The notes below the pieces were generated by a model. That model was not told where the DNA came from and searched no databases. It saw only the letters and a program-made list of their open reading frames with translations. Positions 27,954 through 64,000 of a stretch of DNA of 64,000 nt are shown here, in pieces (position 1 is the first letter of the stretch; each line of letters begins with the position of its first letter). A program made the translations under genes and the position numbers. Source of the DNA: Owenia fusiformis (lineage: Eukaryota; Annelida; Polychaeta; Sabellida; Oweniidae); NCBI GenBank assembly GCA_903813345.2, contig CAIIXF020000001.1, positions 59,909,885 to 59,973,884 of the forward strand. Reading direction: 5' to 3'.

Positions 27954-30373
27954 TTATTGTTCTGGTTCATTGGGAGTCGAAGGTGTTTTCTCAAAGTCCA
28001 ATGAAGCACTGTTGATGCAGTATCGCTTCCCTGTTGGTGGTGGCCCATCATTAAACACATGGCCGAGATGAGCATTACACTGAAAATTACAAAGTAAAGA
28101 TTGAATTAATTACAAGAAAAGATTATTCATCAAGCCCATATGACCAGTTAGCCAGGATTCATTATCTTTACCTACTCATATCAAGAACCCAAATGCACTT
28201 TCTTTGTAAATCGTAATTCAATTTTCAAAATTTATTCATTATTTATTTATTTGTTTACTTAATCATTTATTTATTTATTTATTTATCTATTCATTTATTA
28301 TTTAGAGGAGGAAATACCCAGAATTTATAGATGAACCCATCTGTGTGTAAAGATGACCATAGAATCAATTTAAATGGAGAAAGGTTCATTTATCAATTCT
28401 TGGAAAATGCCTCCTCTTTATTCACGTAAAATAATATGCAGCATGTCAAGAATGAAAGATGTTTTATAAGTAAAGAACTATTTTGATTTACAAGACTTAC
28501 AGGATTTTTCCTATTTTATACCTAGGTTTTAAAATGTTGTCAGATGTTAATATGTAAAGCTACCTTTTTACATGTGACTTCAGTTCTAATCAAGCCATGT
28601 GAAGTATCCTCAATTAAATTTACATTATCGGTATTGTCCACGGGGCATTTCGTTGGCTCAAAGAATGAGGGCCACCCGCTTCCGCTGTCATATTTACTTG
28701 CCGAACTGAAAAATTAATCATTAGGAGATTGAGACAGATATGAACATAACTGAATTGAGGGTGCATACAGTCATTGATGCAGGAAAATATCAATAAGACA
28801 ATGAGGTTAATTTCCACCAGAAATCGACAGAACAAAATATACAATTACTGAGATAAGGTGGACTATTCATTATTCTAATAATAAAAATATGTCAATTCTG
28901 AGCAAAATTTTGCTGGAATTGATCAAAATTTAACTCTGTGGCTGAAGGCCAATTCTATTCATCCACCACACTTACAGAATCCTGGGAGCAGTGATACATG
29001 TACTCAATGTAGACTCGTATTAAAATATTCCACTGAATTTTGTTTGAAAGGTGGATATGTAAGGACAGGTGCAAAAAGAGAAGGACTGCAAAATCTGATG
29101 AAGTATTTAGGATTGTGAAATCAATTTGAGACGATCGAAAAGTTTTAACACATGTAGTACATACTAAACATTGTACATTTCAAGGAACATTTCTTTTAGG
29201 AATAGGCAATTCTCAATTTCCAGCAACAGTGAGCCAATTCTCAATTTTCCAGCAACAGTTAGCCAATTCTCTAATATGATGGGTAAGGTTTCTATTGATA
29301 CAACAAATGTAGAATTATGACTAATAAGAGACTCCTGTCTTATGCTTTACCTGAACAGCTTTGTTCCACAGCAGACACATTCATAGACACCATCTTCATG
29401 ATTTTTATAATATTCTCCAGTAAAGGGCTGAAATGAAAAAAACACCATCAGTTATTTTATTCTCCAGTCAAAAAACTGCATCCCTTGAAAAATGTTCCTG
29501 GGAATTCAAAGTCACACTTTTACACTAACCGAAATAAAATTGATGAAATTTTGTATCGCTTTTGCTATTTATCGGTCTAAATCAGTGTTCTGGCGAGTCT
29601 AGTATGTCATTGAATGATACAGATACCATCACTTGTGAGGTATAACTTATATTCAACCATTAGAAACACATTTTCTTTGCGTATTTCGAAGCAATTAGCT
29701 ACTGATTAATGCTTTAGTTTAGGGGCAATCTGCGCGAGGTTCAATTTTTTGGTTCAGTTTCTTGCGCATGCGCATTCTCCATGATCTTGTGATCGCATTT
29801 GACCAATAGAAAATTGTTTGAATCGGGTCTTCAGCTAGCGGCCAATCGTAAGACTTGTACTGATTACTTGGATATCAAGTATTGAATAACTATTTGTCCT
29901 ATCACATGCTTCGTACTTTTTCGATCAGAAATCAACTTCCGAGAAAGAAAATTTTATTTCTTTTAGAAATAGAATTTCCTTCAATTAGTGGATTCACGAA
30001 GTGATTTACGAAATTCAAATTGCGTCTCAAAAACGTAATTATTTTTAAATTTACATCCACCCAATCTTGATTTACGTCCTCTCCATTGAAGGACGCCGTT
30101 AATGAAATCTCTGATTGATAAATGAAAATTTGTGCCAAAAATTAACCTGATCGTGGCATTTATTTGGAAGTTCGAAGAAAAATCAATGGTCCACTTTTTC
30201 TATTCACCCTGTACATACAAATCTCATAAAGAATCTCACCCTTTCTGTGCCTTTCTGATGTGTGATGTAGTACTCTTCCGGTGTTAGACGTTCTTTCCAT
30301 TCGGCATTTGTAAGTATGAGTCTGTCGTCAGCACCCAGCGCTAAGCAGCATGGAATGAACAACAAACACAATC
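27954..30373 (-). CDS. MSRB: Peptide methionine-R-sulfoxide reductase, secreted, paralogue C
   Basis: Minus-strand exons are 30240-30373, 29351-29427, 28564-28705 and 27954-28079; sizes and phases are the same as in paralogues A and B. The visible parts are a hydrophobic segment ([13 protein letters not shown]), [39 protein letters not shown] (the most canonical exon 2 of the three), [15 protein letters not shown], the second zinc pair [21 protein letters not shown], and catalytic Cys in RYCINSASL (TGC codon). The product ends TPNEPEQ. The hydrophobic start implies secretion or the ER lumen. The first exon, encoding the initiator Met, was not found; a TATA-containing candidate promoter lies at 35368-35440. 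Confidence 0.9.
28245..28312. repeat. TTTA-type microsatellite
   Basis: Imperfect TTTA/TTTG/TTCA tetranucleotide run in the last intron of MsrB paralogue C. Confidence 0.8.
29205..29278. repeat. Short tandem repeat of about 31 bp
   Basis: Words like GCCAATTCTCAATTTTCCAG recur two and a half times in an intron of MsrB paralogue C. Confidence 0.6.
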
Positions 30374-36091: not shown

Positions 36092-39000
36092 ACTGATTCT
36101 CCCTAAGTAGCAAACATGTCTGATGAAGTTAAAGAAGTTGAGAAAAGACCACTAAGTGGTGAAGCTTGTGAAACAAATATCACTAAGAAGCCAAGAACTG
36201 AAACAAATGGAAAACTCAATGACAACAGGTAGATTTGATTCATTGATGCTATTTGAGCTATTGACCTACCAATATTACGGTACAGTATAGAAAACAAGAA
36301 AACAACCAGAGTCTGAATGTAATTCTTAAAATGGGTTTAGCAGGATGATTTTTTAAATGTGTGTACATAACACTAATATACATTACATATAAACGGCAAC
36401 ATATAAAGGTTCTACATCTAATCACTCAATGCATGCTGTCTTAGAAAAAAACATAATAGAAGACCACTATATTTTCTGATTGTAGATGCGTATACCTGGA
36501 CTATAATGCAACAACCCCTCTTGATGTTGAAGTGCTGCATACCATTAGCAACACCCTACAGCATGCATGGGGGAATCCTAGTAGTAAAAGTAAACCAGGT
36601 AAAGGTCAAGGTAAAAGATCAAGGTCAAAGGTCATTTGACAAAGAATCACGACATCAAATCTGACTATTAAACCTGAAAATAAAAATTGGACGATACAAA
36701 TCAGTTTATTCAAAACAAAGGAGCGTATCAGAACATATTGATTTACAAAAATGTCAGTAACTTCATGTACATTAAATAGTGGAGGAAATTAGGCTAGAGG
36801 CAGTAGAGGGGCCACTTTAATTTGTTCAGGGTATAATGATTCAAACAAAATCAAAGGATTTTTTTTAGGTGTGACACCTGCACATAAATATGAGATGTTT
36901 GCTGATTTGTATAATTGCAAAATGTTAAGAAAATGGAAATTATTGAGACGGATAGCAATGTATCGTCACCAAATATCTAAACTGCATTGGTATATGTGGG
37001 TTTGACTTTTGGTATCAAATGAAAACAATCAATATTGTACTTTATTTCCTATTTGTGAGTGATTTCTGATGTTCCATTGATGACATTTCTAAATGTAGGC
37101 ATTGAGGCAGCTAAGGCAGTGGCTGTTGCTAGGCAACAAGTGTCAGAAATGATTCAGGCAATACCAAATGGTAAGTCAGCATATATCATGTACATCATCA
37201 TCATATATCTCATGTACATTTAGGTTAAGATGCAGAAATAGCATTGAACAAGGGATATTCCCTCTTCCAATACTATTGCTGAAACAAAATTTTGACATTT
37301 TTTCTTCACTTACTCTCAACTCATCTTGTTTTTTAACATAAACAAATCTGGTACTTTTCTGAAATAGAAAATAAGTAATATTCTGGTGTTGAAATTCTGC
37401 TTCGCCTAAATGCATGCTTACAAAGTTGCTTTCAGATGTTTATCTACCTATATTTCTTTTATTACTTTCAGACATTGTGTTTACATCTGGAGGAACTGAG
37501 GTTAGTATGTTTTATAATGTATACACAGTATATGAACAGTAAAACCTGTCTAATCCAAACACTACAGCGATCAGCCAAAAGTGTTTATTCCATAATTATA
37601 GGATTCAATGGGAGATAGAAAAATTCGAAATTGGTAAACCATCTGTCTTCAGAAATTTTATAACCTGAAATACTTATGGTAAATGTACTTACTTTGGAAA
37701 GGTAGCAGGCCTTATAAAGCCAAGAATAGACTGGAAAAAGAAAAGACTTCAACCTTCAGGAAGCATACATTTTATATTGTTAGTACCTCAGTGTAAATAC
37801 TCGCATCTGATTGGTAAATTAGCGGTCAACATTTTTGCCTGTACCTCACCTGTGCATCATGGGATATCATATTATTGACCGCGTATGTTACTGTACTACA
37901 CTTGTGAATTATGGGGAATATGACGTCACAATGTTTACAGAAAACAAAATTGAAGACGGACATTTTGTAAACGTTGATGAAAGTGATATTTTGACTTTGC
38001 TAGACGGCATATAGCAAAAATACAAATAGAAACGCAAAATTAACATTAATTTACTACAGAGAGTCTAGCTACCACTGTCTTCTGATTTTCTTAACAAATT
38101 ATTGCTGGCGTGGTTCGGAGAAAAGATTGTGAAATGAAGCCATGATTGATGACTGTCGTCTATATGTGTATTATTAGTTTCTTCTGACTAACAAAACAAT
38201 TGTAGACCTCTCCATTCGGTCAACCGTCAAAATCATATACCTCGACTGTAAACCTTGAAACTACTGTTGACCTCGACCTTCGGTCTCTGTCAACAGTAGT
38301 TTCTCGGTTTACAGTCTCGGTATACAATTTTGCCGGTTGACCTCTGGAGAGGTCAAAAATTGTATATTGTTTCTTCCAGTCTAACAACTTGGTGTTGCAT
38401 ACTGCATTGAAACACTTCCAGAAAACATACTTTTTATATTGTTTCTTCCAGTCTAACAACTTGGTGTTGCATACTGCATTGAAACACTTCCAGAAAACTT
38501 ACATTTTATATTGTTTCTTCCAGTCTAACAACTTGGTGTTGCATACTGCATTGAAACACTTCCAGAAAACATACATTTATATTGTTTCTTCCAGTCTAAC
38601 AACTTGGTGTTGCATACTGCATTGAAACACTTCCAGAAAACATACATTTTATATTGTTTCTTCCAGTCTAACAACTTGGTGCTGCATACTGCATTGAAAC
38701 ACTTCCAGAAAACATACATTTTATATTGTTTCTTCCAGTCTAACAACTTGGTGTTGCATACTGCATTGAGACACTTCCAGAAAACTTACATTTTATATTG
38801 TTTCTTCCAGTCTAACAACTTGGTGTTGCATACTGCATTGAAACACTTCCAGAAAACATACATTTTATATTGGTTTCTTCCAGTCTAACAACTTGGTGCT
38901 GCATACTGCATTGAAACACTTCCAGAAAACATACATTTTATATTGTTTCTTCCAGTCTAACAACTTGGTGTTGCATACTGCATTGAAACACTTCCAGAAA

Positions 39001-42000
39001 ACATACATTTTATATTGTTTCTTCCAGTCTAACAACTTGGTGTTGCATACTGCATGGAAACACTTCCAGAAAACATACATTTTATATTGTTTCTTCCAGT
39101 CTAACAACTTGGTGTTGCATACTGCATTGAAACACTTCCAGAAAACATACATTTTATATTGTTTCTTCCAGTCTAACAACTTGGTGTTGCATACTGCATT
39201 GAAACACTTCCAGAAAACATACATTTTATATTGTTTCTTCCAGTCTAACAACTTGGTGTTGCATACTGCATTGAAACACTTCCAGAAAACATACATTTTA
39301 TATTGTTTCTTCCAGTCTAACAACTTGGTGTTGCATACTGCATTGAAACACTTCCAGAAAACATACATTTTATATTGTTTCTTCCAGTCTAACAACTTGG
39401 TGTTGCATACTGCATTGAAACACTTCCAGAAAACATACATTTTATATTGTTTCTTCCAGTCTAACAACTTGGTGTTGCATACTGCATTGAAACACTTCCA
39501 GAAAACATACATTTTATATTGTTTCTTCCAGTCTAACAACTTGGTGTTGCATACTGCATTGAAACACTTCCAGAAAACATACATTTTATATTGTTTCTTC
39601 CAGTCTAACAACTTGGTGTTGCATACTGCATTGAAACACTTCCAGAAAACATACATTTTATATTGTTTCTTCCAGTCTAACAACTTGGTGTTGCATACTG
39701 CATTGAAACACTTCCAGAAAACATACATTTTATATTGTTTCTTCCAGTCTAACAACTTGGTGTTGCATACTGCATTGAAACACTTCCAGAAAACATACAT
39801 TTTATATTGTTTCTTCCAGTCTAACAACTTGGTGTTGCATACTGCATTGAAACACTTCCAGAAAACACATTTTATATTGTTTCTTCCAGTCTAACAACTT
39901 AGTGTTGCATACTGCATTGAAACACTTCCAGAAAACATACATTTTATATTGTTTCTTCCAGTCTAACAACTTGGTGTTGCATACTGCATTGAAACACTTC
40001 CAGAAAACATACATTTTATATTGTTTCTTCCAGTCTAACAACTTGGTGTTGCATACTGCATTGAAACACTTCCAGAAAACATACATTTTATATTGTTTCT
40101 TCCAGTCTAACAACTTGGTGTTGCATACTGCATTGAAACACTTCCAGAAAACATACATTTTATATTGTTTCTTCCAGTCTAACAACTTGGTGCTGCATAC
40201 TGCATTGAAACACTTCCAGAAAACATACATTTTATATTGTTTCTTCCAGTCTAACAACTTGGTGTTGCATACTGCATTGAAACACTTCCAGAAAACATAC
40301 ATTTTATATTGTTTCTTCCAGTCTAACAACTTGGTGCTGCATACTGCATTGAAACACTTCCAGAAAACATACATTTTATATTGTTTCTTCCAGTCTAACA
40401 ACTTGGTGTTGCATACTGCATTGAAACACTTCCAGAAAACATACATTTTATATTGTTTCTTCCAGTCTAACAACTTGGTGTTGCATACTGCATTGAAACA
40501 CTTCCAGAAAACACATTTTATATTGTTTCTTCCAGTCTAACAACTTGGTGTTGCATACTGCATTGAAACACTTCCAGAAAACATACATTTTATATTGTTT
40601 CTTCCAGTCTAACAACTTGGTGTTGCATACTGCATTGAAACACTTCCAGAAAACATACATTTTATATTGTTTCTTCCAGTCTAACAACTTGGTGTTGCAT
40701 ACTGCATTGAAACACTTCCAGAAAACATACATTTTATATTGTTTCTTCCAGTCTAACAACTTGGTGCTGCATACTGCATTGAAACACTTCCAGAAAACAT
40801 ACATTTTATATTGTTTCTTCCAGTCCAACAACTTGGTGTTGTATACTGCATTGAAACACTTCCAGAAAACATACATTTTATATTGTTTCTTCCAGTCTAA
40901 CAACTTGGTGCTGCATACTGCATTGAAACACTTCCAGAAAACATACATTTTATATTGTTTCTTCCAGTCCAACAACTTGGTGTTGCATACTGCATTGAAA
41001 CACTTCCAGAAAACACACCCAGAGTCTTCTGATATGAAGCCCCATTTCATCACCAGTAATATAGAACATGATGCAGTCAAACTTGTACTGGAACATTATA
41101 AGGAAGAATATGAAGCAGGTTTTTAGAGTTTTCTTGTCAACAGCTAACGTGTTAAAATATGGGATTATTTCGAGCCATCATACAGGATGAAGTATAAATA
41201 AATGAAACTAGAAAAGAAGATGTATTATCATAGTCCTCACTTGTTTCTGTAATTAATCATGTGCCAGTGTCATTTAATCATTAAATGGCTCAAGGCAATT
41301 AAGGGGGGATAAGCATTGGCATTCCACAATTCACTTGCGATGTAATCATTTCCAGTGATGTCATAATATGTACCAGTTCCACAATCTACTTCAATGCTGT
41401 CTGCTTTACAGAGGTGACATATGTGTCAGTCTCACACTCCACTTCAATGTATGTTTTTCAGAGGTGACATATGTGCCAGTCTCACACTCTACTTCAATGT
41501 TGTCTGTTTTGCAGAGGTGACATATGTGCCAGTTTCACATTCTACTTCAATGTTGTCTGTTTTGCAGAGGTGACATATGTGCCAGTTTCACATTCTACTT
41601 CAATGTTGTCTGTTTTCCAGAGGTGACATATGTACCAGTCTCACACTCTACTTCAATGTTGTCTGTTTTGCAGATGTGACATATGTGCCAGTTTCACATT
41701 CTACTTTAATGTTGTCTGTTTTCCAGAGGTGACATATGTACCAGTCTCACACTCTACTTCAATGTTGTCTGTTTTGCAGATGTGACATATGTGCCAGTTT
41801 CACACTCTACTTCAATGTTGTCTGTTTTGCAGAGGTGACATTTGTGCCAGTTTCACACTCTACTTCAATGTTGTATGTTTTCCAGAGATGTCCAATGTGC
41901 CAGTCTTACACTCTACTTCAATGCTGTCTGCTTTGCAGAGGTGACATAGGTACCAGTTTCACACTCTATTTCAATGTTGTCTGTTTTGCAGAGGTGACAT

Positions 42001-44807
42001 ATGTGCCAGTTTCACACAACACTGGAGCAGTTGAGGTCCAAGGAGTCCTAGATGCAATAAAGTCCAACACTTGTCTCATTTCCATTATGCTGGCAAACAA
42101 TGAAACTGGAGTTATTCAGGTACACACGTATGATATTTCCACTCATCTATTTCTCTATCAAAATTGGTTTCAAGGTTTTCTTTATGTTAAGGCGTTTAAA
42201 TGTTATAATTAATTGCCTCCAAGACTTGTAAATTACAATATTATTATTTGATGTACATTTGTATTTATAATTTTATTATTAATTAATATATTTTGCAGCC
42301 AGTTCAGGAGATCTGTGAAAGAGTTCGTAGTCTTCCTCAATATTCATCTATTCTCCTCCACACTGATGCTGCTCAGGCTATAGGCAAAATAGAAGTCAGT
42401 GTAAGATCCCTGCCTGTAGACTATCTCACAATTGTTGGTCATAAGGTAGGGAAACTATCTCACAGTTCCTTGGGTTCAACTTATAACATAGATCACTTTT
42501 ATACAAAAATCCCAAACTGATGCAATAATTTGCTTCATAGATGAGCAATATTAACTGCAATTTATTAAGAATCCTTGCAATTATCAAAATGGCTACCTTT
42601 TGTAAATGGTTACATGTACCTCCCAATGCCAGCTAAGTATGCATGGTATTTTTTATTTCCAGTTTTATGGTCCAAGAATAGGAGCATTATATTTTAGGTC
42701 TAGCAAGACGCCAGAGCAAGCGAGTGCTCCTCTCTACCCAATGTTTTTTGGAGGCGGACAAGAGAGAAACTATAGACCAGGGTAAGTCATTGCTAATAGT
42801 AATACATGTACATGTACATGTGTTGAGGTGTCACATCATAGAGCCTTTGATATAATTCAAGGGTCAAACTCTTTTTAGACAAGTTATGTTGTCGACATTA
42901 TTTACATTACTTGTACATCTTTTTGTTAACGAGAGAAATAAATGGAAACATAAAAAACTGTTTTAGAAAAATAAACTCATAGTCTATCAATATATTTCCA
43001 GTGAAAGAAATACTGCCATGGTTTCCTGCCAAAATCTGATTAACCAATATCTGATTATCCAAGTTATCTGGTTATAAGTGTGCCTGTAAAGTAATGACAA
43101 ATTGAAATGATGGACATTGATTGAAAGCTATGTAACACCCTTGTCGCTATATTTACAGCACTGAAAACACAGGCATGATAGCTGGTCTAGGAAAGGTGTG
43201 TACATACATGTATATGTGTTTTTATATATAATTTATAATTGAAATTGGCCAGGAAGAAAACTCTTGTTTTTGGTCAATTTTGTTAATTAACATACTATTT
43301 AATCTGAGGCTTAATATTCCATGAAATTCCTGTCATCTACTAAACTACTCATTCTGATACTCATAGCGTCTTTCTGTTTCACCTGAAATATCTCAGGGCT
43401 GAGAAGAAGTGAGATGTCATGGTTTATCATGATGTAAACTACTACATGTATATCTATTCCATGAAGAAAACAAGAGAGACAAATAATTATCAAGTCAGAT
43501 TTGTAGATGATTTCTTACTCATTTATGTACCTGCAGCTTTTAATCAAAAATCTTGTTCCATTTTCAGGCTTGTTATCTAGTAACAAAAAACCTAGAAAAC
43601 TACGCTAAACACATGAGAGAACTGAGGAGTTATTTTGAATCTAAACTGAGGGTAATTATGATAAAAATTTATATAGTAGCCGGGACAAGTCATACACCTC
43701 TTATTTCCTGATAATGGGGCAATTCTAGCAGTTATTTGAGTGCTTGCTCACATACTGGCTTCTGTACATGAATTTTTACTTATGTATTTCATCTATTTCA
43801 TATAATTTATTAGTTAAAATGAAATAATAAAATCATTTTTGTATGTTTTTTTTCTAGAGTGTATATGGTGAAAGACTTCATATTAATGGAAAGTTTACAG
43901 AAAGTGAGAGGTTGCCAAACACGAGTAATGTTTCCATAGAAGGGATGCATTTGAAAGGTACGGTACAACAGAGATAGCTGACTCATAAGTTTAGATCTCT
44001 TGATTAATTTTGATTCAGAAATCGAAATCGTTGACATTTTAAACATGAAGTTTTACTAGTTGGGGTCCCTTGTTTAAAACATTGAGTCGTGGAAATCATA
44101 CCAGCATCCTACCCCAAAGCTCTAGAAACAAAAGAATTACAAAGTAGGCTACTTTAACTGGTTTTGTATCAAAGACATTATTGTTGATTGTTATTCCCCA
44201 GGTTCTGATGTTCTGAGAAACTGTCAGTGCACGCAAGCCTCAGTTGGAGCAGCCTGTCACTCAGCAACAAAGTAAGCATATATCTGTCAATGAAATCTCT
44301 GTACTGTAGTTAATTCACTAGAGAATAGTACAAGAACTAACTGATGCATGTGATTACTTATATAGTCATACAAACCAAAATAAGGAGAACTTGTCATAAA
44401 ACCACTGAGACGTCAGAAGTGTTCAGAACAGCAAAGGTTAACATTTCAAGGATCTTAAAGAGACTCTTGGGAGAGATTACAAAATTTAGGCTGAGAGAAA
44501 GTGTTCATATTTAAGAGGTGCTCAGATTACAGAGCCGTTTAGGTTACATTTGAGAGATTTTGATGGAGATTTGAAGTTTGAAGACAAATCTATCCCTAGA
44601 CAGGTTGATATTTACAGTTGCAATTATATCATTTATTTTTCTTGCAGATTTTGTGTGTCAAGCATTCTCACAGCAACAGGAATACCAGAACATATTGCTG
44701 CCAATGCAATGAGGTTTAGTATGGGACGTGAAACAACAATGGATGACATTGACACTGTGATTTTTGACATTGTTAAAGCAATTAAGGCTATAGATGCCCA
44801 TTCATGA
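36092..44807 (+). CDS. SCLY: Selenocysteine lyase, complete coding sequence in 13 exons
   Basis: SCLY is a cytosolic PLP enzyme that splits selenocysteine to alanine and selenide for selenium recycling. Exons are 36092-36228 (ATG 36116), 36486-36598, 37099-37170, 37472-37500, 40968-41118, 41992-42119, 42299-42445, 42663-42781, 43159-43195, 43568-43651, 43858-43957, 44202-44271 and 44648-44807. All have GT-AG boundaries and the coding total is 1323 nt, 440 codons plus stop (human 445). Landmarks are [21 protein letters not shown] (PLP phosphate loop, split across exons 4/5), [27 protein letters not shown] (PLP lysine, residue 251), [14 protein letters not shown], and GAACHS (catalytic Cys 383). 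Arrays derived from its own exon edges precede exons 5 and 6 and follow the last exon. The upstream 5' UTR exon was not located. Confidence 0.95.
38205..38354. repeat. Foldback hairpin immediately upstream of the 72-bp array
   Basis: The left arm, starting GACCTCTCCATTCGGTCAAC, pairs with the right arm ending TTGACCTCTGGAGAGGTC. The arms are about 65 bp and the loop is about 17 bases. The hairpin ends at the base where the array begins. Confidence 0.8.
38355..41013 (+). repeat. 72-bp tandem array, 37 copies of SCLY exon 5 acceptor plus exon start
   Basis: The unit joins TTTTATATTGTTTCTTCCAG, a strong 3' splice site, to the first 48 nt of SCLY exon 5 (coding [16 protein letters not shown]). 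Acceptor-like AGs run from 38379 to the authentic one at 40967. The spacing is 72 bp, except for one 71-, one 73- and two 70-bp units; 36 intervals total 2588 bp, which fits. Copies are nearly identical, varying mainly at one GTGTTG/GTGCTG position. The last six decoy acceptors (exon starts 40536, 40608, 40680, 40752, 40824 and 40896) are in frame with exon 5 and contain no stop, so each would add 24 residues per unit. Upstream of the 70-bp unit near 40513 the frame is lost. Confidence 0.97.
41385..42018 (+). repeat. 53-bp tandem array, 12 copies of SCLY exon 6 acceptor plus exon start
   Basis: The unit is TCTGTTTTGCAG followed by AGGTGACATATGTGCCAGTT, the acceptor and start of exon 6. Copies begin near 41407, 41455, 41510, 41563, 41616, 41669, 41721, 41774, 41827, 41880, 41933 and 41986 (the authentic one). 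Because 53 is not a multiple of 3, a read from most decoys meets TGA in the next unit (AGG-TGA). The decoy with exon start 41833, three units (159 nt) upstream, is in frame. It stays open because the next copy has AGATGTCC instead of AGGTGAC. Copies are more diverged than in the 72-bp array. Confidence 0.93.
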
Positions 44808-46660
44808 CACAATAGTTTGATACATTGGACATATTGCTGCCAATGCAATGAGGTTTAGTATGGGACGTGAAACAACAATGGATGACATTGACACTGTGAT
44901 TTTTGACATTGCTCAAGCAATTGAGGCTGTAGATGCCAATTCATGACACGCAATAGTTTGATACATTGAACATATTGCTGCAAATGCTATGAGGTTTAGT
45001 ATGGGACGTGAAACAACAGTGGATGACATTGACACTGTGATTTTTGACATTGCTCAAGCAATTGAGGCTGTAGATGCCAATTCATGACACACAATAATTT
45101 GATACATTGAACATATTGCTGCCAATGCAATGAGGTTTAGTGTGGGACGTGAAACAACAATGGATGACATTGACACTGTGATTTTTGACATTGCTCAAGC
45201 AATTGAGGCTGTAGATGCCAATTCATGACACACAATAATTTGATACATTGAACATATTGCTGCCAATACTATGAGGTTTAGTACATGTAGTATGGGACGT
45301 GAAACAACAATGGATGACATTGACACTGTGATTTTTGACATTGCTCAAGCAATTGAGGCTATAGATGCCCATTCATGACACGCAATAATTTGATACATTG
45401 AACATATTGCTGCCAATGCAATGAGGTTTAGTATGGGACGTGAAACAACAATGGATGACATTGACACTGTGATTTTTGACATTGTTCAAGCAATTTAGGC
45501 TATAGATGCCCATTCATGACACGCAATAGTTTGATACATTGAACATATTGCTGCAAATGCTATGAGGTTTAGTGTGGGACGTGAAACAAACAATGGATGA
45601 CATTGACACTGTGATTTTTGACATTGCTCAAGCAATTGAGGCTGTAGATGCCAATTCATGACACACAATAATTTGATACATTGAACATATTGCTGCCAAT
45701 ACTATGAGGTTTAGTACATGTAGTATGGGACGTGAAACAACAATGGATGACATTGACACTGTGATTTTTGACATTGCTCTAGCAATTGAGGCTGTAGATG
45801 CCCATTCATGACACAAAATAATTTGATGCATTGAACATATTGCTGCCAATGCAATGAGGTTTAGTATGGGACGTGAAACAACAGTGGATGACATTGACAC
45901 TGTGATTTTTGACATTGTTAAAGCAATTAAGGCTATAGATGCCCATTCATGACACAATAGTTTGATACATTGAACATATTGCTGCCAATGCTATGAGGTT
46001 TAGTATGGGACGTGAAACAACAATGGATGACATTGACACTGTGATTTTTGACATTGTTAAAGCAATTAAGGCTATAGATGCCCATTCATGACACAATAGT
46101 TTGATGCATTGAACATATTGCTGCCAATGCTATGAGGTTTAGTATGGGACGTGAAACAACAATGGATGACATTGACACTGTGATTTTTGACATTGCTCTA
46201 GCAATTGAGGCTGTAGATGCCCATTCATGACACACAATAATTTGATACATTGAACATATTGCTGCCAATGGTATGAGGTTTAGCGTGGGACGTGAAACAA
46301 CAATGGAAGACATTGACACTGTGATTTTTGACATTGTTAAAGCAATTGAGGCTGTAGATGCCAATTCATGACACACAATAGTTTGATGCATTGAACATAT
46401 TGCTGCCAATGCTATGAGGTTTAGTATGGGACGTGAAACAACAATGGATGACATTGACACTGTGATTTTTGACATTGTTCAAGCAATTAAGGCTGTAGAT
46501 GCCCATTCATGACACAAAATAGTTTGATGCATTGAACATATTGCTGCCAATGCTATGAGGTTTAGTATGGGACGTGAAACAACAATGGATGACATTGACA
46601 CTGTGATTTTTGACATTGTTAAAGCAATTAAGGCTATTGATGCCCATTCATGATACACAC
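44690..46660 (+). repeat. ~142-bp tandem array, 14 copies of the SCLY terminal exon 3' end
   Basis: The unit runs from GAACATATTGCTGCCAATGC through GATGACATTGACACTGTGAT to the TTCATGACAC stop region and a short tail with TTTGATACATTGA. The core word occurs near 44741 (authentic), 44880, 45023, 45165, 45315, 45455, 45596, 45747, 45889, 46028, 46166, 46307, 46449 and 46588. Extra copies follow the authentic stop codon, so they would lie in the 3' UTR. Most keep the reading frame of the last 38 codons. Copies near 45287 and 45713 share a 9-bp ACATGTAGT insertion, which indicates higher-order duplication. Confidence 0.95.
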
Positions 46661-48046
46661 GAACTTAATACATTGTGATTTTTAAAGGGGACCAGTCATA
46701 GCATTGGTTCCTATATTTAGACATTTGGTATGGCATTGGTCTTATATTTTTTGACATTTGGTATGGCATTTGGTTTGGTAGAGGGGGTGCCATTGCTTAT
46801 TGACACCCTGTATATCGTTTGGTATGGGAACACATCGAAATTTGACAAATTGGTGTGGGAATATATTGAGATACGAGGGTTCAGCCTAGGACCCCTGCTG
46901 AATTTTGTACAAAGTAATCCGCACGGGCTAAGAAAAATTAGCATGATGGGTTCACTCTTGATTTAAAAAGAACATTGAGTATGTGAAAAGATGTATTTTT
47001 CTGACAAAGGGGGCTTGCTGGTATTTGCTGGGTAATGGTGCTGGGGTAAAATGATGAGATGATCTGTTGGAGTGAGAGGAGCAAGGCCATCTTCAGAAAT
47101 AAGTGGAATTGACTAATAAAAAACTTGTAACTAGTTCAAAAATCAAAATATTCTGTTCAATTTAGGGACCCGGTACAAATAGTAATGTTTTGATCAAACC
47201 ATTTCTGTCCATTTAAATGTTATCTTATAAATTGAGAATGTTAACATTTAGATTACCTTATTCACCTAAAAAAGCGCCCCAATGAGCACCCCTTTAATGT
47301 ATGTCTTGGTCATGGTCAGTAACTCAGTATGTAATCCATGATAAAAGTTATTAAGTATTATACGATTTTTGATGACGAATGGAACGAAATTATTGAAGTA
47401 AGATCATTGGGTGTTAATCTTCATTAATAGTTAGTACGATCAGTAGATCACTTCTAATCACTGTGAAATCGAAGGAAGAAAACTGAATGTGTATGTATGT
47501 GGTGTGATTCTTCAGAAAAAAACACCCCATCTGTTAACTCATGAGACCGACCCCTCCGACTACACTAATTTACAGCCTTCGTGTAAACGACCTTATGTAT
47601 ATTATGTTTTATGAGCCTATATTCCATATAAACGGTTTCTGGTGGGATATAAAAATGTTTGCTTGTGTGCTCAAACACAAGAATCAAAGAATAGATCATT
47701 TTAACAATTACTTCCTAAGGTTCCTATGGCCAAAAGTAAAGGGAAAGGTAAAATGTTAAGAATGCAAGAAAACTGACCTAATCTTCTGATTTCATATACA
47801 CAGATATTTTTTATTATTATATAGGTCAAAAATTGACTGTTTTTATAGATACTGTATATAAAGTCAGCGCATTACCAGAGGAACTTATTAACTTAACAAC
47901 TTGAAAGGTCTACACTTCAACATTATATATATTTTTCCTCCTGTTATTGACAATGTACAATGTACATTCAGCTTACTCACTTCGAGAGCCATGTTAGATT
48001 TTGAATCAAAATCCAAATAGCTTTCGCAGGAAGTAACATTCAGCTG

Positions 48047-48276: not shown

Positions 48277-51200
48277 TCAGTAATTCAGTTCATCATATGT
48301 TGATGTCATATGGATTTTAAAATTCTTTTTAAAACAGTAAATGGAAGGTGATGTTTTCAAAGAAGTTGGCAGATTATTCCAAAGCTGAGCACCTGAATAT
48401 TTTATTGAATGTTGACCTATACTTGTTCTAAATTTTTTCATGTGAAGACAATTTTGGAATCTTGTCTCATGTTCGTGAAATATTAAATTTGGAGTAAAAT
48501 AATTTTCAAATATGTCAAAAGGAAAGCCATCGGGTTTTGTTGTGTATTGATAAAGAAATTTTGCAACTTCAAGCTTATGTATGTCAAAAATATCTAGAAA
48601 ATTGAGTTGTTTAAAAAGAGGTGGACTGTGTGCTAAAAAGTCAGAATTTGTGATTATTCTCACTGCACGTTTTTGTAACAAAAGCAATTTATTCAAAAAG
48701 GTTTTACATGCATTACCCCATATGATGTTGCAATAGTTCAATTGTGATAATATAAGTGAATTATAAATGGTAATCATGGTTTTTGTATTCAATTTATATT
48801 TAATCTTTCCCAGAATACCAATAATTTTTGATATTTTATGTATAACCTTATTTATGTGTTCATTCCATTTTAATTTACAATCAATTGTTACTCCCAGAAA
48901 ATTTGTATGCATTACTCTATTAAGAATATTACCCCCTATTTTTATATTAAAATCTTGATTTTCATCAATATTTAACTTTGATCTTGTAAATAGCATATAA
49001 TTTGTCTTGTCTATATTTAAAGAAAGTTTATTTGATTTGAACCATTCTAATGTCTTTTCCATTTCTAAATTTACATTTCTATATAGATCATGAAGATTTT
49101 TGTTAGAACATAAGATATTTGTATCATCTGCGAAAATAGTAAATTTAAGAATATTTGAAACCTTATGTAAATCATTTATATAAAGAATGAATAAGATGGG
49201 GCCTAAAACAGACCCTTGAGGTACACCACAAGTGATAATATTTTCTTCAGATAGAGTGTTGTTAAAAGAAGTAATGATTTTTCTATCCGATAAATAGCTT
49301 TCGAACCAATTTTTTGCAACATTGCGAATTCCAAAATTATCAAGTTTTTTTAGAAGAATTTCATGATTTACTGTATCGAAGGCTTTCGATAAATCTAAAA
49401 ATATTCCAATAGCATGAGTTGAGCTTTTATCTAAAGATATCCTCACTTCTTCCAAGAAGGAGAGGATTGCCATATAAGTTGAATAATGTTTTCTAAAACC
49501 AAACTGATTTTTGAATAAAAGTTTGTATGTTTCAATGAATGTTATTAATCTATTTTTCATGATCTGTTCTAAGAGTTTAGAAAAGACACTAAGTAGAGAT
49601 ATGGGTCTATAGTTTGAAAATTTTGAAGTGTTTCCTTTTTTAAAAAGTGGGATAACTTTGGCTGTTTTCAACTTAGTGGGAAAAACACCTGTATGGATAG
49701 ATAAGTTTGCTATATGAACAAATGGTAAAAGTAAGTTATTTCTTGCGTGTTTAACTACTATTGGTTTGAATTCATCTAGGCCTGGTGAGCAATCTTTTAA
49801 AACTGACATTAAATTTTCGATTTCATTCTTACTCACAGGAGTAAGTTCTAAAGAAGATTCATTGATTTCCATAAATGTTAAAGGGGACGTTTTTGAACTT
49901 ATCTTTGATGCTAATTTAGGTCCAACATTAGAAAAAAATCTGTTAAAATGATTAGCAATATCTTTTCTATCAGTCAAAGTATCATCTCCATCATAAAATT
50001 TATCTGGAAAAACTGAATCACATTTTTTGCGGTGAAGTAAATCATTTATAACTGACCAAGTATTCTTGATATTATTGCTTGTTTCAGTAAATCTATCACA
50101 AAAATATTTCCTTTCTGCTTTACGGATTAATTTATGGAGTTTGTTTCGAAAAGTTTTGTATTCAGCTTGATTCTGTTTCGTTGGGTGTTTCAAAGTATTT
50201 CGATAAAGTTTATTCTTCTGTTTCACAGATGTTAGTATACCATGTGAGAGCCAAGGCTTAATTGGGTTCTTGTGAATTTTTGTATTTTTGACTTTTACAG
50301 GGAAATGTTCATCATATTTTCTACTAATTTTGTCTGCAAATAAATTATAAGCCACATTTACATCAACCTTTTCATTAATTATACCAGTCCAATCTATATC
50401 TTTCAATGAATCACTAAAATTATTAATTGCACTCAATGGATATTTCCTAAAAGTGATTTGTTTATTTTCACAAACATTTTGATGGTGTGATGTAAGGGCA
50501 AAGATAGGATGGTGATCAGAAATGGGAAATGAAAGAAGACCACTTTTGATTACATTATTTGAATTAGAAAAGATATTATCAATAAGCGTAGCACTTTTTT
50601 CTGTTATTCTGGTAGGTTTAAAAATCAATGGGTTGTAAGATTGGGAGTATAATAGATTAAGAAAATTCAACGTTTGTGCATCACTTTCAGTTTTAAGTAA
50701 ATCAATGTTGAAATCACCCATTATAAAAGAAATTTTATGTTCCCTATCAATTTTAGAAAGTAGACTCTCAAAACTTTCAAGAAAAGATGCCATGTCTGTA
50801 TTTGGTGGTCTATATATTATAGTAATAACCATATTTTTCTCATTTTTTCTAGGAATTTCAATAGATAGTGATTCACATGCTTTATAATCTAATTTGAGGT
50901 CATCCCTATGTTTAAAGTCAATGCCTTTTAAAATATGAAGTGCAACACCACCCCCTGGTCTATCTTTCCTAGAGTTAAAAATACTATTATAATTAGAATC
51001 ATTTTCCTCATAAATAGGCTCTAAGTTTGATGTAAGCCATGTTTCAGTCATACCAATAATTGAAAGATTATTTTTTAACAATTGCAACATATTATGGAAT
51101 TTCCATTGATTTTTAGATACACTCCTCATGTTGATGTGTAACATACTAAGATCATTTGATTTTTGTAAGTGATAGTTAAATTGATCAATATTATTGTAGT

Positions 51201-51414
51201 TGCACTGATTAACTGATTGATTTATTTCAAAATCATGTGCAGTGAGAGGTTCATCCTTCTGTCTATTTTCTAAAGTCAGTGGATTAAAAATAAGACTTTC
51301 ATAATCATTTATTGGAATTAAAGAAGGTGCTAAGTCAAGAAATTCAATTGGTGTTGCCTCATAAAATGGAAACATCTGCCATTTCATAACCTCTATATTT
51401 CTAGACATAACCAA
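48277..51414 (-). CDS. LINE ORF2: AP endonuclease and reverse transcriptase
   Basis: 1045 codons, uninterrupted. The N-terminal endonuclease shows LHINMRSV, GMTETWL, YRPP, MGDFNIDL, TLIDNIF and SDHHPI, covering the expected catalytic Asn, Glu, Asp and His positions. The reverse transcriptase follows with NYRPISLLSVFSKLLE, FLDLSKAFDTVNH, GVPQGSVLGPILFILYINDL and FADDTNIL (the catalytic Asp pair). A C-terminal region contains LGVTIDCKLKWNEHI and a tail ending STYDELNY. The true start may be downstream of the listed ATG, since the endonuclease begins near residue 90. All motifs look intact, so recent activity is plausible. Confidence 0.93.
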   Translation of the reverse strand: MVMSRNIEVMKWQMFPFYEATPIEFLDLAPSLIPINDYESLIFNPLTLENRQKDEPLTAHDFEINQSVNQCNYNNIDQFNYHLQKSNDLSMLHINMRSVSKNQWKFHNMLQLLKNNLSIIGMTETWLTSNLEPIYEENDSNYNSIFNSRKDRPGGGVALHILKGIDFKHRDDLKLDYKACESLSIEIPRKNEKNMVITIIYRPPNTDMASFLESFESLLSKIDREHKISFIMGDFNIDLLKTESDAQTLNFLNLLYSQSYNPLIFKPTRITEKSATLIDNIFSNSNNVIKSGLLSFPISDHHPIFALTSHHQNVCENKQITFRKYPLSAINNFSDSLKDIDWTGIINEKVDVNVAYNLFADKISRKYDEHFPVKVKNTKIHKNPIKPWLSHGILTSVKQKNKLYRNTLKHPTKQNQAEYKTFRNKLHKLIRKAERKYFCDRFTETSNNIKNTWSVINDLLHRKKCDSVFPDKFYDGDDTLTDRKDIANHFNRFFSNVGPKLASKISSKTSPLTFMEINESSLELTPVSKNEIENLMSVLKDCSPGLDEFKPIVVKHARNNLLLPFVHIANLSIHTGVFPTKLKTAKVIPLFKKGNTSKFSNYRPISLLSVFSKLLEQIMKNRLITFIETYKLLFKNQFGFRKHYSTYMAILSFLEEVRISLDKSSTHAIGIFLDLSKAFDTVNHEILLKKLDNFGIRNVAKNWFESYLSDRKIITSFNNTLSEENIITCGVPQGSVLGPILFILYINDLHKVSNILKFTIFADDTNILCSNKNLHDLYRNVNLEMEKTLEWFKSNKLSLNIDKTNYMLFTRSKLNIDENQDFNIKIGGNILNRVMHTNFLGVTIDCKLKWNEHINKVIHKISKIIGILGKIKYKLNTKTMITIYNSLILSQLNYCNIIWGNACKTFLNKLLLLQKRAVRIITNSDFLAHSPPLFKQLNFLDIFDIHKLEVAKFLYQYTTKPDGFPFDIFENYFTPNLIFHEHETRFQNCLHMKKFRTSIGQHSIKYSGAQLWNNLPTSLKTSPSIYCFKKNFKIHMTSTYDELNY

Positions 51415-57959: not shown

Positions 57960-60626
57960 ATGTCTGAACCAATGAAGAACCAGCCAGGGCAGCAGCCCCC
58001 TCCCCCTGCCAACTATGGACAACAGCCACCACCCCAAGGCTATGGACAACCTCCACCCCAGGGCTATGCTCAGGCTCCTCCCCCTTACGGACAACCCCCA
58101 CAAGGATATGGACAACCCCCACAAGGAGGCCAACCCCCACAACAAGGCTATGCTTCACCCCCACAAGGCTATGGTCAGCCTCCTCCACAAGGTTATGGTA
58201 GGTGTCATATTTATTAGCTTGCATGTATGTCATACTGTATTTGTCTTTAATTTGGCTCCACTTAATTTGGCGATTTTTATTTTTGGGCTTATTGGCATCT
58301 ATTTAATTTGGCAGCTTTTCAGTGTCCCCAACATCCTCCTGTCCAACAAAATTCAAAATAATCATTGTAAGTGCTGTTCATGAACAATTTCTTCAATATT
58401 TCTTGTTGTTTATATAAATTTCTTCAATATTTTTGTTTCTGTCAATTTAAACGGCCTGGCCATCTTGGTATCTTTCTTATAACTGGAAATGCACCGAACG
58501 AAAAACATGTCAAATTCCCAAGCGCCGATTTAAACGCTTGTCAAATTAAAGACAAATGTATACAGTATATTATTGATCTGTCAGTCTTAATTTCCCAGGA
58601 TCATTGAAATACCAGCACAGTGATTCATGTAACATGTAACATATATGAATATGATATCATATGATCCTGATGGTCTGTTGTCCATAATTGAGTTTATTAA
58701 CAAAACATTATTCTATCACAGTTCAATTGAACTTGTGGATCAAACACTGATTCCACAAATGATGATTTTCTGTCACTAGTCACAACAGTATAAAGTATAT
58801 ATTGATATCATTCCAGCTTATAGTAATGATGTAAAAGCACAACCTTACATTATGTAATAAGACAAGGATTACATAGATTCCACTCTTTATGTTAATATTT
58901 ATTAGACATATTGCTTGCACAATTATTAATTCACATATAGCTAGGCAAGGTATGTCCGATTCCAGCCAATTCGAACAGAGTATTCACATAATGAACAACA
59001 TGTAAAATATGAGTATCAACAAAGCATTTGTTGTCTGTGGCATCATGCAAAGATTTGACGACATATTTGTGGAATGGTTCAGCACACAATGCACTGAGTC
59101 CAAGGCTTAAATCCTTAAACCATACATTCCAGGTCTTTATATTGCATATTAATACATACAGTCCTGTCTTCCAGGTCAGCCACAGTATGGTGTACAGCCA
59201 GGAGGTTATGCAGGCCAGCCAGGTCAGCCAGGTAAACATTTGATATACACATTGGCAAAGATTGCAGGCCCGTAGCCAGGGGGGGTTCGCAGGGTTCGGG
59301 CGAACCCCCCCCCCCCCCCCCCCGGCCAAAAATTCTTTCTAAATCAGGCAGTTTTTCATCATTTTGAGCACTTTTCAAGTGATTTTAGCCATATTTGGGC
59401 CAAAATTGTCAAATGTGAACCCCCCTGGAAATTTTTGAAAACTGAACCCCCCCCCCCCTTGGCAAATACTGGCTACGGGCCTGTGCAACAATCTATCTTT
59501 GATACAACATGGGAAATATATTGATTCATTTTGAAGAATAAGAATGACCTCATCAAGGAATTAATGTTTTTATTGAAAAATACAGGTTATTTAATGGGAG
59601 GGATGAAATATGAATTTATTTCGAGGGAAAATATGATATTGGCCAAGGAAAAATCATGTTGACCAAGGGCGATTCAAGGAAAAATTCATATTCCATCATG
59701 ACCATCAATAACCTATTTATTCTATAATAATTTTCTAAATCTTATTTATTTTTGCTGATACAGGATCCAATACAGGATCCAATATGGGATTTTGGCTGAT
59801 ATGGGATCCGATTCAGGATTTTTTGAATATCAATTCTATTCCTGTTATTATCCCGGGGAAAACATGTTATTATGGAATAATCTATATAAACATTGAAGGC
59901 AGTATTGCAATATTATAGAAGAACAATGTTAAGCTCTTAAATGCCACATGGTCAAAGACTGAACAGGTACACAAAGAAATATATATTTGTATTATTTTCA
60001 GGTTTACTAAATCATTTTGAATTGATTGATATGTTGTACATGTAGGTGTGCCTCCTATGGGTGGTGCCCCTGGGGGAGTTCAGTGGATGGCACGCCCAGA
60101 GGGACTCCCAGGCTGTCCCCCAGGACTAGAGTACCTCACCCAGATAGATCAGATCCTTGTACACCAGCAAGTAGAACTATTAGAAAGTAAGTACATGTAC
60201 ATTCTATTTCACATATCAACACATGAATAATCTATAATTGTTGCCTGCTCCAAGAAATAATTGAAGACTAACCAAAATTACGATATGGAGGAGAGGTCAT
60301 CGCCTCATTATGGAATATGAAACATGATAGGCTAACTTCAGTGAATTCTTGGTAATTAATAACGTTTTAACAGACATTGAAATATTGACCCGGTCCCGGC
60401 CCCTAACTGTTTGGAAGATAAAAACATATAGCACTGATCTATGATGTATGATACGATACTTTTTAATTCAGTGATGACTGGGTTTGAGACTCAGAATAAA
60501 TACCAGGTGAAGAACTCTTTGGGACAGCAGGTCTATTTTGCTAATGAGGAGAGTGATATGTGTATGAGACAATGCTGTGGACCTCAGAGAGGGTTTACCA
60601 TGCACATAACAGACAACCTGGGTCAG
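57960..60626 (+). CDS. PLSCR: Phospholipid scramblase, 5' four coding exons (partial)
   Basis: Scramblases of this family move phospholipids across the plasma membrane bilayer in a calcium-dependent way. Coding exons are 57960-58197, 59175-59231, 60046-60186 and 60472-60626, all with GT-AG boundaries and matching phase. The N-terminus is a proline-rich region with repeated QGYGQPP blocks (possible WW/SH3 ligands). It is followed by [38 protein letters not shown] and a cysteine cluster CMRQCCGP, the position that is palmitoylated in mammalian PLSCR1, then [10 protein letters not shown]. The remaining exons (beta-barrel end and C-terminal helix) are not in the window. The last exon here is followed by four decayed copies of its own 3' end and donor. 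Confidence 0.93.
59265..59483. mobile_element. Foldback MITE, second copy of the CAGGCCCGTAGCCAG family
   Basis: The ends CAGGCCCGTAGCCAG and CTGGCTACGGGCCTG are perfect inverted repeats with long G and C runs inside. It lies in a scramblase intron. Its interior is homologous to 3246-3457 (for example AAAAATTCT and the GTTCGC words), but inverted. No clear target duplication was seen. Confidence 0.8.
59584..59716. repeat. Imperfect hairpin repeat
   Basis: GGTTATTTAATGGGAGGGATGAAATATGAA pairs imperfectly with TTCATATTCCATCATGACC and then AATAACC. The internal words TTGGCCAAGG and TTGACCAAGG recall the hairpin at 23964-24133. It is followed by a short ACAGGATCCAAT tandem near 59761-59785. Confidence 0.5.
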
Positions 60627-61078
60627 GTAAGGAACAGTGATCTACTTTGCTAATGAGGAGAGTGATATGTGTATGAGACAGTGCTGTTGACCTCAGAGAG
60701 GGTTTACCATGCACATAGCAGACAACCTGGGTCAGGTAAGGAACAGCAGGTCTACTATTTGCTGAGTAGAGTGATATGTGTATGAGACAATGCTGTGGAC
60801 CTCAGAGAGGGTTTACCATGCACATAACAGACAACCTGGGTCAGGTAAGAGATAGCAGGTTTACTTTGCTAATGTGGAGAGTGATATGTGTATGAGACAG
60901 TGTTGTGGACCTCAGAGATGGTTTACCATGCACATAACAGACAATCTGGGTCAGGTAAGGAACAGTGATCTACTTTGCTAATGAGGAGAGTGATATGTGT
61001 ATGAGACAATGCTGTGAACCTCAGAGATGGTTTACCATGCACTTAACAGACAACTTGGGTCAGGTAAGGAACAGCAGG
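60518..61078 (+). repeat. ~109-bp tandem array, five copies of a scramblase exon end plus 5' splice site
   Basis: The unit starts TCTATTTTGCTAATGAGGAG, continues through ATGCTGTGGACCTCAGAGAG and ends CTGGGTCAG followed by GTAAGGAACAG. Donor-like GT sites follow exon ends at 60626 (authentic), 60735, 60844, 60954 and 61063, a spacing of 109-110 bp. Read-through past the authentic donor meets TAA within ten codons, so decoy donors would truncate the protein. The copies carry substitutions and small indels; the donors themselves are conserved. A LINE fragment begins immediately after the last copy. Confidence 0.93.
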
Positions 61079-61082
61079 TCTA

Positions 61083-64000
61083 CTTTTTTATTTTTTTATT
61101 TATTTCATTAAAACATGATAACATTTTTACATATTCGTGGTCGTGACACCTACATAGGTATATAATTGACCACATTTAAAATCATTATTCTAAAATTTTC
61201 AAGTGCTTGAAAGTTTAACACAACATGACACTGGGTGAACCATAATTTGTCTCATGAGTTAAAAACATTGGTAAAAAATAATGTACAATAAAGAGGATGG
61301 AATTACCTTACGTTTGCAGAACATCAAAATCAGTATTTTGAAAATGTGTCATCTTTAAAAAGACGTTTTCGTTTATAAATATTATTGGTAAGTTTAATAG
61401 TATTAGGAATTTTATTCCAGATAATTTCACCTTGTACTTTAAAACTGTATCTTAAATAATTGGTTTTGAATTTTGTTACATGAACTTGTTCATTCTGTCT
61501 AGTGTTGTGTTGATGAACACTATTGTTTTTTCCAAAGAAGTCAATAAAAATGTCACTTGGAAAAGAATCGGGTCTGTTAATACATTTGTAAGTTAGTTGT
61601 AGAATATTAAGGTCATATATGTCAGTAAATTTTAGAATTTTGAATTGTTTAAAGAATGGCCCGGTATGTTCTCTATTTCTGCTGTAAGTAATAATTCTTA
61701 AAAAACGTTTTTGTAGTTGAAATATTGAATTCGTTGCAGTTTTGCCTGCATTTCCACAAGCACATATACAGTATTGAATTTGAGAATATATAAGTGAATA
61801 GTAAATTGATAAAAGTGTTTTTGTATTTAGTTTATGTCTACTTTTAAATAGTATCCCGATAATTTTTGATATTTTAAGCGATATTTTTTTATATGTTCCT
61901 TCCAGTTTAAATCCTCATCAATAATTATCCCTAAGAAGTTGAATGATTGTACTCTCTCTACTAAATTATTTCTTATTTTGATCTCAATATTTTGTGGAAC
62001 TTTATGTTTGCAGGTTGTATATATCATAAAGGACGATTCTCGGTTTGGAGAACGAAGTTCATCAATCTAAGTGAGCATTATCCCTGCTTCGGACAAATTT
62101 GATATTTTTACATAATATAGATTTGAATGTCTTCTTTTGAATAGTCATAATTTAATTTGGGTAATATTTCTAGATTTTTCGCAAAAAAAATATTAGCGCA
62201 GTACACTGATGAACTTCTTTCCCCAAATAGAGACTTGTATTTTATTGAATCGGTCTAATTGAGTGTTATCCCTGCTTCAGACCAATTTGTTATTTTTACA
62301 TCTTGTAGATTTAAATGTCCTCTTTTGAATATTCATAGTTTAATTTGGGTAATATTTTTATATTTTTCATGAAAAAAATTATTAGCCCAGGAGACTGTTC
62401 TCCAAACCGAGAATCGTCCTTTTGTCTTCTGTACGTTTAGAGATAGCTTATTAGCGCAAAACCAATCATCAATTTTATACAGTTCACAATTTAATTTAGT
62501 TATCAGATTATTTATGTTCTTATCAGAATACAAGATGTTTGTATCATCTGCAAAAACTACATATTTTAACAAAGAACTTGAACATATAATGTCATTGATA
62601 TATATTATAAACAAAATAGGACCTAAGGTAGTGCCTTGTGGAACTCCACATGTGATTGATTGTTCCTGAGATTTAATATTATTATCACCATATACAGTAC
62701 ATGTACAGTAAATTGTTTTCGATTATTTAGATAACTTCTAAACCAATCATTAGCTTTTCCTCTAATACCATAAAAATTGAGTTTAGATAATAAAATGTCA
62801 TGATTAACAGTATCATAATGCTTTACTGAGGTCCAAGAATATGCCAATAGAGAACTGTTTATCATCTAATGCTTTACGCAAATTTTCTAAAAAAGAAAGT
62901 ATAGCCAAGTAAGTGGATCTATTTTTTCTAAAGCCAAATTGATTACGACACAAAAGTTTGAATTTTTCAAAAAAATCTGTAAGTCTATGAGCCATTACTT
63001 TTTCAATTATTTTTGAAAAAATAGATACTAAAGAAATAGGTCTATAGTTACTGAAGAATTGTTTTGTACCTTTTTTATATAATGAAATTACCTTGGCAAC
63101 TTTCAAATCATCTGGAAAGATGCCAGTTTTAAAAGATAGTTGAGTTAGGAATACAAGAGGTTTTGCAAGGATGGCACTACTATTTTTGATAACTATAGGC
63201 TTTATATCATCATTACCAGCAGATTTATCTTTCAAATTATCTAAAATTGATTTTATTTCATCAAAAGTGACATGTCGTAGATATAAACTTTGGCTTAAAG
63301 AATTAGACATTTTCTTCAAATAATGTTGAAATGTTTTATGAGAATTAGGTATGTTTTTAGCCAAATTATTTCCAACATTGACAAAATAATCATTAAAACC
63401 ATTAGCTATTTCTTTGGGATTAGTAAATGTTTTATTATTGTGTATAAATTTATCAGGTGATATTTGCAATTTCTTTCCTCTGTTTAATATTTCATTAATG
63501 TGTGTCCAGGTGTCTTTTATATTACCAGATGATTGTTCAAATTTATATCTGTAATGAAGTTTTTCTGCATGTCGAATAGTTTGCCTTAGAATGCGTTTAT
63601 ACTTTTTGTAAGATTCAAGCTTATCTTGTGTAGAGTGCTTTAAATAGTTAATGTAAAGTTTATTTTTAAATTTTATAGAGGTCAAAATTCCTTCTGTCAG
63701 CCAAGGTTTTTTATTGTTGTAGTAATATTTAATATATTTAGTAGTTACCGGGAAGCATTCATTATAGAGACTTTGAATTTTTTCGATAAAATATGCATAG
63801 CCTAAATTAACATCATCAAATTCATATAGCTGGGAAAAGTCAAGTTCAGAAAGGCGTGATTTAAAGGTAATATGATTTTTGTTTTTCATTTGGCGAAAAG
63901 AAATGCGTTTACTCACTACTTTTACTAGGTAAGTCAGTCGTTACATATATAGGAAAGTGGTCAGATATATCAGTTAAAATTATACCGGATTGACTGGCCT
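61083..64000 (-). pseudogene. Decayed LINE copy, runs off the right edge
   Basis: The minus strand carries reverse-transcriptase sequence related to the element at 48049-53950. 62813-63916 has FSNYRPISLVSIFSKIIEKV and FLDLSKAL before a frame break. It continues at 62623-62865 (YDTVNHDILLSKL) and 62333-62614 (VVFADDTNILYSDKN), and then at 61827-62027. The 3' end is an AT-rich tract at 61083-61110. A frameshift near 62815-62835, another near 62615 and an inserted 389-bp element (62031-62419) break it, so it cannot be active. It lies in the scramblase intron after the last exon seen. Confidence 0.88.
62031..62419. mobile_element. 389-bp TIR element nested in the LINE copy
   Basis: The termini are GGACGATTCTCGGTTTGGAG and its inverted partner ending CCGAGAATCGTCC, about 23 bp. 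Inside are two direct repeats of roughly 165 bp, each with TTATCCCTGCTTC(A/G)GAC and TAATTTGGGTAATATTT words. The insertion separates SLNVQKT from MIYTTCKHK in the LINE reading frame. No transposase is present. Confidence 0.85.

Follow-up and report, generated by a model that had tools for sequence, protein, structure and literature searches.

We describe an array of 72-bp tandem repeats that places 37 near-identical 3′ splice sites at a single exon edge of the selenocysteine lyase gene SCLY in the annelid Owenia fusiformis, together with further arrays at other exon edges of this genome. The window analyzed is a stretch of 64,000 nucleotides (assembly GCA_903813345.2, contig CAIIXF020000001.1, forward-strand positions 59,909,885 to 59,973,884), and coordinates refer to it unless another stretch is named. 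The coding span of SCLY (36116..44807, plus strand) comprises 13 exons encoding an intact protein of 440 amino acids, with GT-AG boundaries at all 12 introns. From end to end the model is identical with an annotated O. fusiformis protein (P0001), and the model's two best matches in the PDB are solved selenocysteine lyases, with an alignment that runs through the GGTE-SNN stretch.

The array (A1; 38359..41015, plus strand) lies at the acceptor boundary between intron 4 and exon 5. Tandem Repeats Finder (TRF) resolves it into 37.0 copies of a 72-bp unit with 98% matches, each unit combining the 24 nt at the end of intron 4 with the first 48 nt of exon 5. Copy 37 and the 103 nt beyond the array make up the true exon 5 (40968..41118, plus strand), and copies 1-36 are decoys. 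The 37 acceptors run from 38380 to the true site at 40968, the last decoy acceptor being at 40896, and their 36 spacings measure 72 bp in 32 cases, 70 bp in two, and 71 and 73 bp in one each. Counting the true copy, 36 of the 37 copies agree with the true site in the last 14 intron bases and 34 in the last 20, and a search of the window for the 22-nt acceptor word with at most three mismatches returned 36 matches, against a mean of 0.00 in 100 shuffles. Compared with the animal's own genome, a 446-bp piece of A1 matched at the SCLY locus only (seven matches, one candidate stretch scored). A previous sequence-only reading of this DNA had identified the unit as the edge of SCLY exon 5, with the true exon as the last of 37 copies, on which TRF and the 13-exon model agree; its exon start at 40968 is upheld by the identity of the model with the annotated protein, and its claim of near-identical, retained acceptors by the base counts above and the scores below. 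The interval it assigned to the feature, 38355-41118, covers the array and what remains of exon 5.

Acceptor strength was scored with a simple matrix built from the 13 acceptors of the SCLY and scramblase genes that lie outside arrays. All 36 A1 decoys score at least as high as the true acceptor, and local strength therefore cannot select the last copy; the sites being equal, what decides the choice must lie beyond the repeated unit. The consequences of decoy use would depend on position. Splicing to any of decoys 1-30 (30 of 36) would bring in a premature stop codon. The reading frame is kept and stays open at decoys 31-36, as the sequence-only reading had stated, so that their use would add 24-144 residues, and decoys 34-36 would yield the shortest exons (223-367 nt). 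After the acceptor AG all 37 copies continue with TCTAAC or TCCAAC instead of GT, and the best plus-strand donor match in the 72-bp unit agrees at four of nine consensus positions. With no donor directly after the acceptor AG, the copies are not recursive splice sites; with an acceptor and no plausible donor in each unit, they are not a cluster of mutually exclusive exons; and since exon 4 of annotated SCLY is spliced to copy 37 with no added intron, they do not represent intron gain by tandem duplication.

The sequence-only reading had treated A1 as unique, a view that does not survive the finding of three more exon-edge arrays in the window, of others elsewhere in the genome and of a described class of such arrays in amphioxus. 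Array A2 (41366..42017, plus strand; 53 bp x 12.4 copies) covers the acceptor of SCLY exon 6 (true exon 41992..42119, plus strand, in the gene model and the annotated protein) and presents 12 AG acceptors, of which the last (41992) is true. Five of its 11 decoys score at least as high as the true acceptor (rounded scores), and use of 10 would lead to an early stop, decoy 9 (41833) alone staying open. The unit of A3 (44688..46659, plus strand; 141 bp x 13.9 copies) spans the 3′ part of the last SCLY exon, the stop codon and the bases that follow. Its first copy is coding and 13 copies lie downstream, in the predicted 3′ untranslated region (UTR), a prediction based on the first AATAAA/ATTAAA past the stop being located at 47115. 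Array A4 (60524..61086, plus strand; 109 bp x 5.1 copies) repeats the donor of a phospholipid scramblase exon, the fourth of the part of that gene visible in the window (60472..60626, plus strand), and offers five donors, of which the first, at the exon end (60626), is true; the nine donor bases are identical to the true donor in three of the four decoys, and use of any of the four would lead to a stop. Beyond the window, the same scramblase intron holds eight more donor copies (stretch L011), including an array of 79 bp x 6.6. A neighboring scramblase paralog (L028) carries an array of 110 bp x 18.6 with 19 donors, again with the first true, and two other paralogs (L029 and L030) have the same exon without an array.

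An additional donor array came from an unselected stretch of the same chromosome (L020; 81 bp x 8, eight donors, first true). The best named matches of its gene are calcium channel alpha-2/delta subunits (CACNA2D). The fragment spliced at the first donor aligns at 86-87% over all 109 residues with its best three matches, and use of the seven decoy donors would meet a stop; within the length limits of the search no matching Owenia record was found, the sole Owenia match (47%) being a different protein. The splice-site arrays share one layout. The exon-intron boundary falls inside the unit of A1, A2, A4, L028 and L020, the A3 unit spanning a coding end with no splice site. In these five splice-site arrays the authentic exon is a border copy with the other copies on its intron side, last in the acceptor arrays (A1, A2) and first in the donor arrays (A4, L028, L020), so that the true site is always the one nearest to the other end of its exon. 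The annotated Owenia proteins of array genes (P0001, P0172 and the partial record P0122) have the true edges joined and contain no decoy peptide.

Two lesser repeats adjoin these features. A 168-bp inverted repeat (38196..38363, unstranded) has its right arm next to the first A1 copy; inverted repeats were rejected as a common trigger of the arrays, none of 14 nt or more being present at the tested flanks of A2, A3 and A4. A 13-bp microrepeat in three copies (36597-36634) begins at the donor of SCLY exon 2 (CAG/GTAAAGGTCAAGGTAAAAG, the slash marking the exon end) and is perhaps a very small exon-edge array of the same sort.

The internal structure of the arrays bears on how they evolve. The 36 full A1 units fall into 11 types; ten identical units stand in a row, a run that most shuffles do not reach (P = 0.014), and the string of unit types contains the block I-DDDE-E two times, at a distance of 8-9 units. 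The repeated block and the long run point to exchange of several units at a time, presumably unequal. A1 is homogenized inside, with identical units in the center and private variants mostly in the outer copies; identical run, block duplication and outer variants together agree with the recent expansion or homogenization that the sequence-only reading had suggested. In A3, border copies 1 and 14 have common variants that were lost from many inner copies, and the coding copy resembles copy 9 (98.6%) more than copy 2 (94.3%). The A3 decoys show no coding constraint, their variants comprising 12 nonsynonymous and four synonymous changes when a ratio of 3.9:1 is expected without constraint. The decoys of L028 are mosaic. 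Their distal 36 nt agree with the window scramblase gene at 34 positions and with their own exon at 23; their proximal 66 nt agree with their own exon at 62 positions and with the window gene at 55. At seven distal sites the window gene departs from a base shared by three paralogs, and at six of these the L028 decoys side with the window gene. At four proximal sites L028 is the only gene to differ, and at three of these its decoys side with L028; two of these three correspond to a Gln-to-Gly codon change of the L028 protein. On the pattern of these variants, the simplest reading is that the L028 array came from the window scramblase gene or a close relative of that gene and subsequently exchanged with the L028 exon, in one direction or the other.

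We regard A1 as a minisatellite of the mirage type described in amphioxus; unequal exchange probably multiplied its 72-bp unit, and exon definition probably keeps the 36 decoys silent. Unequal exchange and gene conversion would be the engine behind the arrays. Under exon definition, the acceptor closest upstream of the exon 5 donor would become its partner in the spliceosome, and those farther away would be ignored. The annotation is the basis on which the 36 intronic copies are likely to be silent decoys: the published Owenia annotation merged splice junctions from RNA sequencing (RNA-seq) with gene prediction, with RNA-seq support reported for 31,678 of 31,903 transcripts (PMC9977687); the SCLY record P0001 presumably derives from it. 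Any leakage to decoys should be low at most, and would be expected first at decoys 34-36, because these give the shortest exons and are in frame. The layout of the arrays is as exon definition predicts and the reverse of that expected from pairing across the shortest intron, which supports exon definition without proving it. Several points weigh on the other side. The same layout also fits survivorship, if only arrays with ignored outer copies persist; the annotated protein could be the main one of several products, or the choice of a gene finder; decoys 34-36 would themselves form exons of definable size; and the exon 5 donor (CAG/GTTTTT) is the weakest of the 15 scored (5.3 vs 8.0-11.3), an awkward fact for exon definition. 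Among the three explanations offered by the sequence-only reading, dominance of the last copy through its downstream exon comes closest to the one favored here. Its premise that splicing takes the first good AG after a branch point would not settle the choice among 37 copies that each have a candidate branch region and an AG.

Another of those explanations, a tolerated family of isoforms in which decoys 31-36 are appreciably used and SCLY carries 24-144 extra residues after GGTE, draws on the open frames of these six decoys and on scores that match the true site. We consider it unlikely, given that the other 30 decoys lead to stops, that an insert would split the conserved GGTE/SNN stretch, with probable harm to the enzyme, and that the annotation lends it no support: the one Owenia SCLY record among the best 120 of 7997 matches has no insert and stands in a single-member cluster. 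Recursive or stepwise splicing through the copies, the remaining one, would make use of the many acceptors gathered in one 3.5-kb intron; it is scarcely credible for acceptors that no donor follows, in a unit that offers no better donor match than the one described above. That A1 might be shorter or absent in the animal is likewise highly improbable. Near-identical tandem copies are a known assembly hazard, and one amphioxus mirage was misassembled in a draft genome, as recounted in the parts of PMC3087553 and PMC3902484 drawn on here. The A1 copies, however, bear scattered private variants and indels, similar arrays occur at unrelated loci, and the read N50 of 25.75-30.75 kb given for Owenia PacBio data in PMC9977687, which appears to describe the same assembly, far exceeds the 2.66 kb of the array.

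It could also be argued that the arrays have a selected function (splicing fidelity, slower splicing or control of SCLY output), or that exon edges are favored targets of amplification. The three SCLY arrays and the scramblase array all touch exon edges, and in these compact genes, with the arrays collapsed, the chance that a randomly placed unit spans an edge is 0.238 for 72 bp, 0.167 for 53 bp, 0.481 for 141 bp (stop included) and 0.216 for 109 bp, a joint chance of about 0.004. This product is post hoc. For comparison, 14 stretches of 10 kb each, taken unselected from the same chromosome (C1), were searched for arrays with units of 30-300 bp, at least four copies and at least 80% matches, and the DNA around five of the 11 arrays found (L014, L016, L020, L025 and L026) was read by eye. 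At least one of the 11 lies at a clear exon edge (L020), a minimum in view of possible further edges on the minus strand in L015 (77 bp, donor-like words) and L016 (acceptor-like words). By a rough estimate, random placement in a gene-bearing genome would produce about one in 11, and targeting of exon edges is not supported by this sample. A survey of myosin-head exons, insensitive to short units, found no run with a period below 300 bp among 94 matches (65 of 210 candidates scored), and the A3 decoys, as noted, show no constraint. Selected function or targeting thus seems decidedly improbable to us; Owenia looks rich in local tandem arrays generally, with exon edges among the places struck.

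The surveys and the window yielded further observations. The myosin-head survey returned a row of 12 matches to the same part of the domain (profile about 18-84), 326-1941 bp apart (G000:C9:37986009-37994334), like the alternative-exon cluster of a myosin heavy chain. A parallel survey of VWA-family exons was unusable, its 156 matches (150 of 685 candidates scored) being mostly whole-domain exons and kb-scale duplications. Stretch L009 carries, on its minus strand (953-1405; C1 near 59.891 Mb), an array of 11.3 copies of 40 bp in which ten AG/GTRAGTAT words recur every 40 bp behind a short possible exon; it is a candidate without a named gene and was not counted. A fifth large array of the window (162 bp, 130-1002) is tied to no known exon, and by eye this repeat is alike at three places within about 100 kb (window 130-1002, L009 1644-2651 and L011 9435-9957); a different 135-bp repeat, also judged by eye, is common to L008, L015, L017 and L024. 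The window also contains two open reading frames (ORF) for reverse transcriptases of the long interspersed nuclear element (LINE) type on the minus strand (48277-51414 and 62813-63916), the latter located in the scramblase intron past A4 and ahead of L011, where that array continues, and a methionine sulfoxide reductase B (SelR domain) exon (29347-29430, minus strand).

Beyond the favored account of A1, a broader proposition is possible but doubtful: that mirages occur throughout the Owenia genome, with decoys that trade sequence with coding edges through gene conversion, can pass between paralogs and feed amino-acid changes into proteins while exon definition silences them. If arrays do exchange with the coding edge, they would be a source of exon change. 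The 37 near-identical acceptors of a single intron constitute a natural test of which factors other than the site itself determine splice-site choice, and the donor arrays provide its mirror image. Exon-edge arrays also put gene annotation at risk if repeats are masked or removed.

In the open-licence literature we found no report of mirages in Owenia or any other annelid, and mirages in an annelid would mean that the class is not peculiar to cephalochordates. A1 is a very large annelid case of this known class. According to the parts of PMC3087553 and PMC3902484 drawn on here, mirages are carried by the amphioxus genes Adh3, PGBD5 and TnC and by the globins BflGb6 and BflGb9, with mRNA reported as undisturbed. 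As in amphioxus, tandem units cross exon-intron boundaries on the acceptor or donor side, with splice signals in many copies, and are homogenized inside clusters to the exclusion of the border copies; amphioxus units of tens to about 160 bp are similar in length to those of Owenia. Unlike the amphioxus cases, as far as those parts describe them, A1 has 37 copies versus 3-7 (the number for Adh3 not being among these), and SCLY carries three arrays, one of them on a coding end without a splice site. Exchange between decoys and coding exon, and the apparent passage of an array between paralogs, are what Owenia adds to the mirages known so far.

Two other systems invite comparison. The Rogers model of intron gain (cited in PMC3087553, with a potato case in PMC4974935) invokes a tandem duplication carrying AGGT, and shares with the Owenia arrays the intragenic duplication of splice-site sequence; it differs in that no new intron arises in Owenia, where the decoys lie inside an existing intron or past the stop codon. 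Tandem repeats in human segmental duplications (PMC2812944) resemble those of Owenia in lying near exons and differing between paralogs, but they change gene structure, whereas the annotated structure of the Owenia genes is unchanged.

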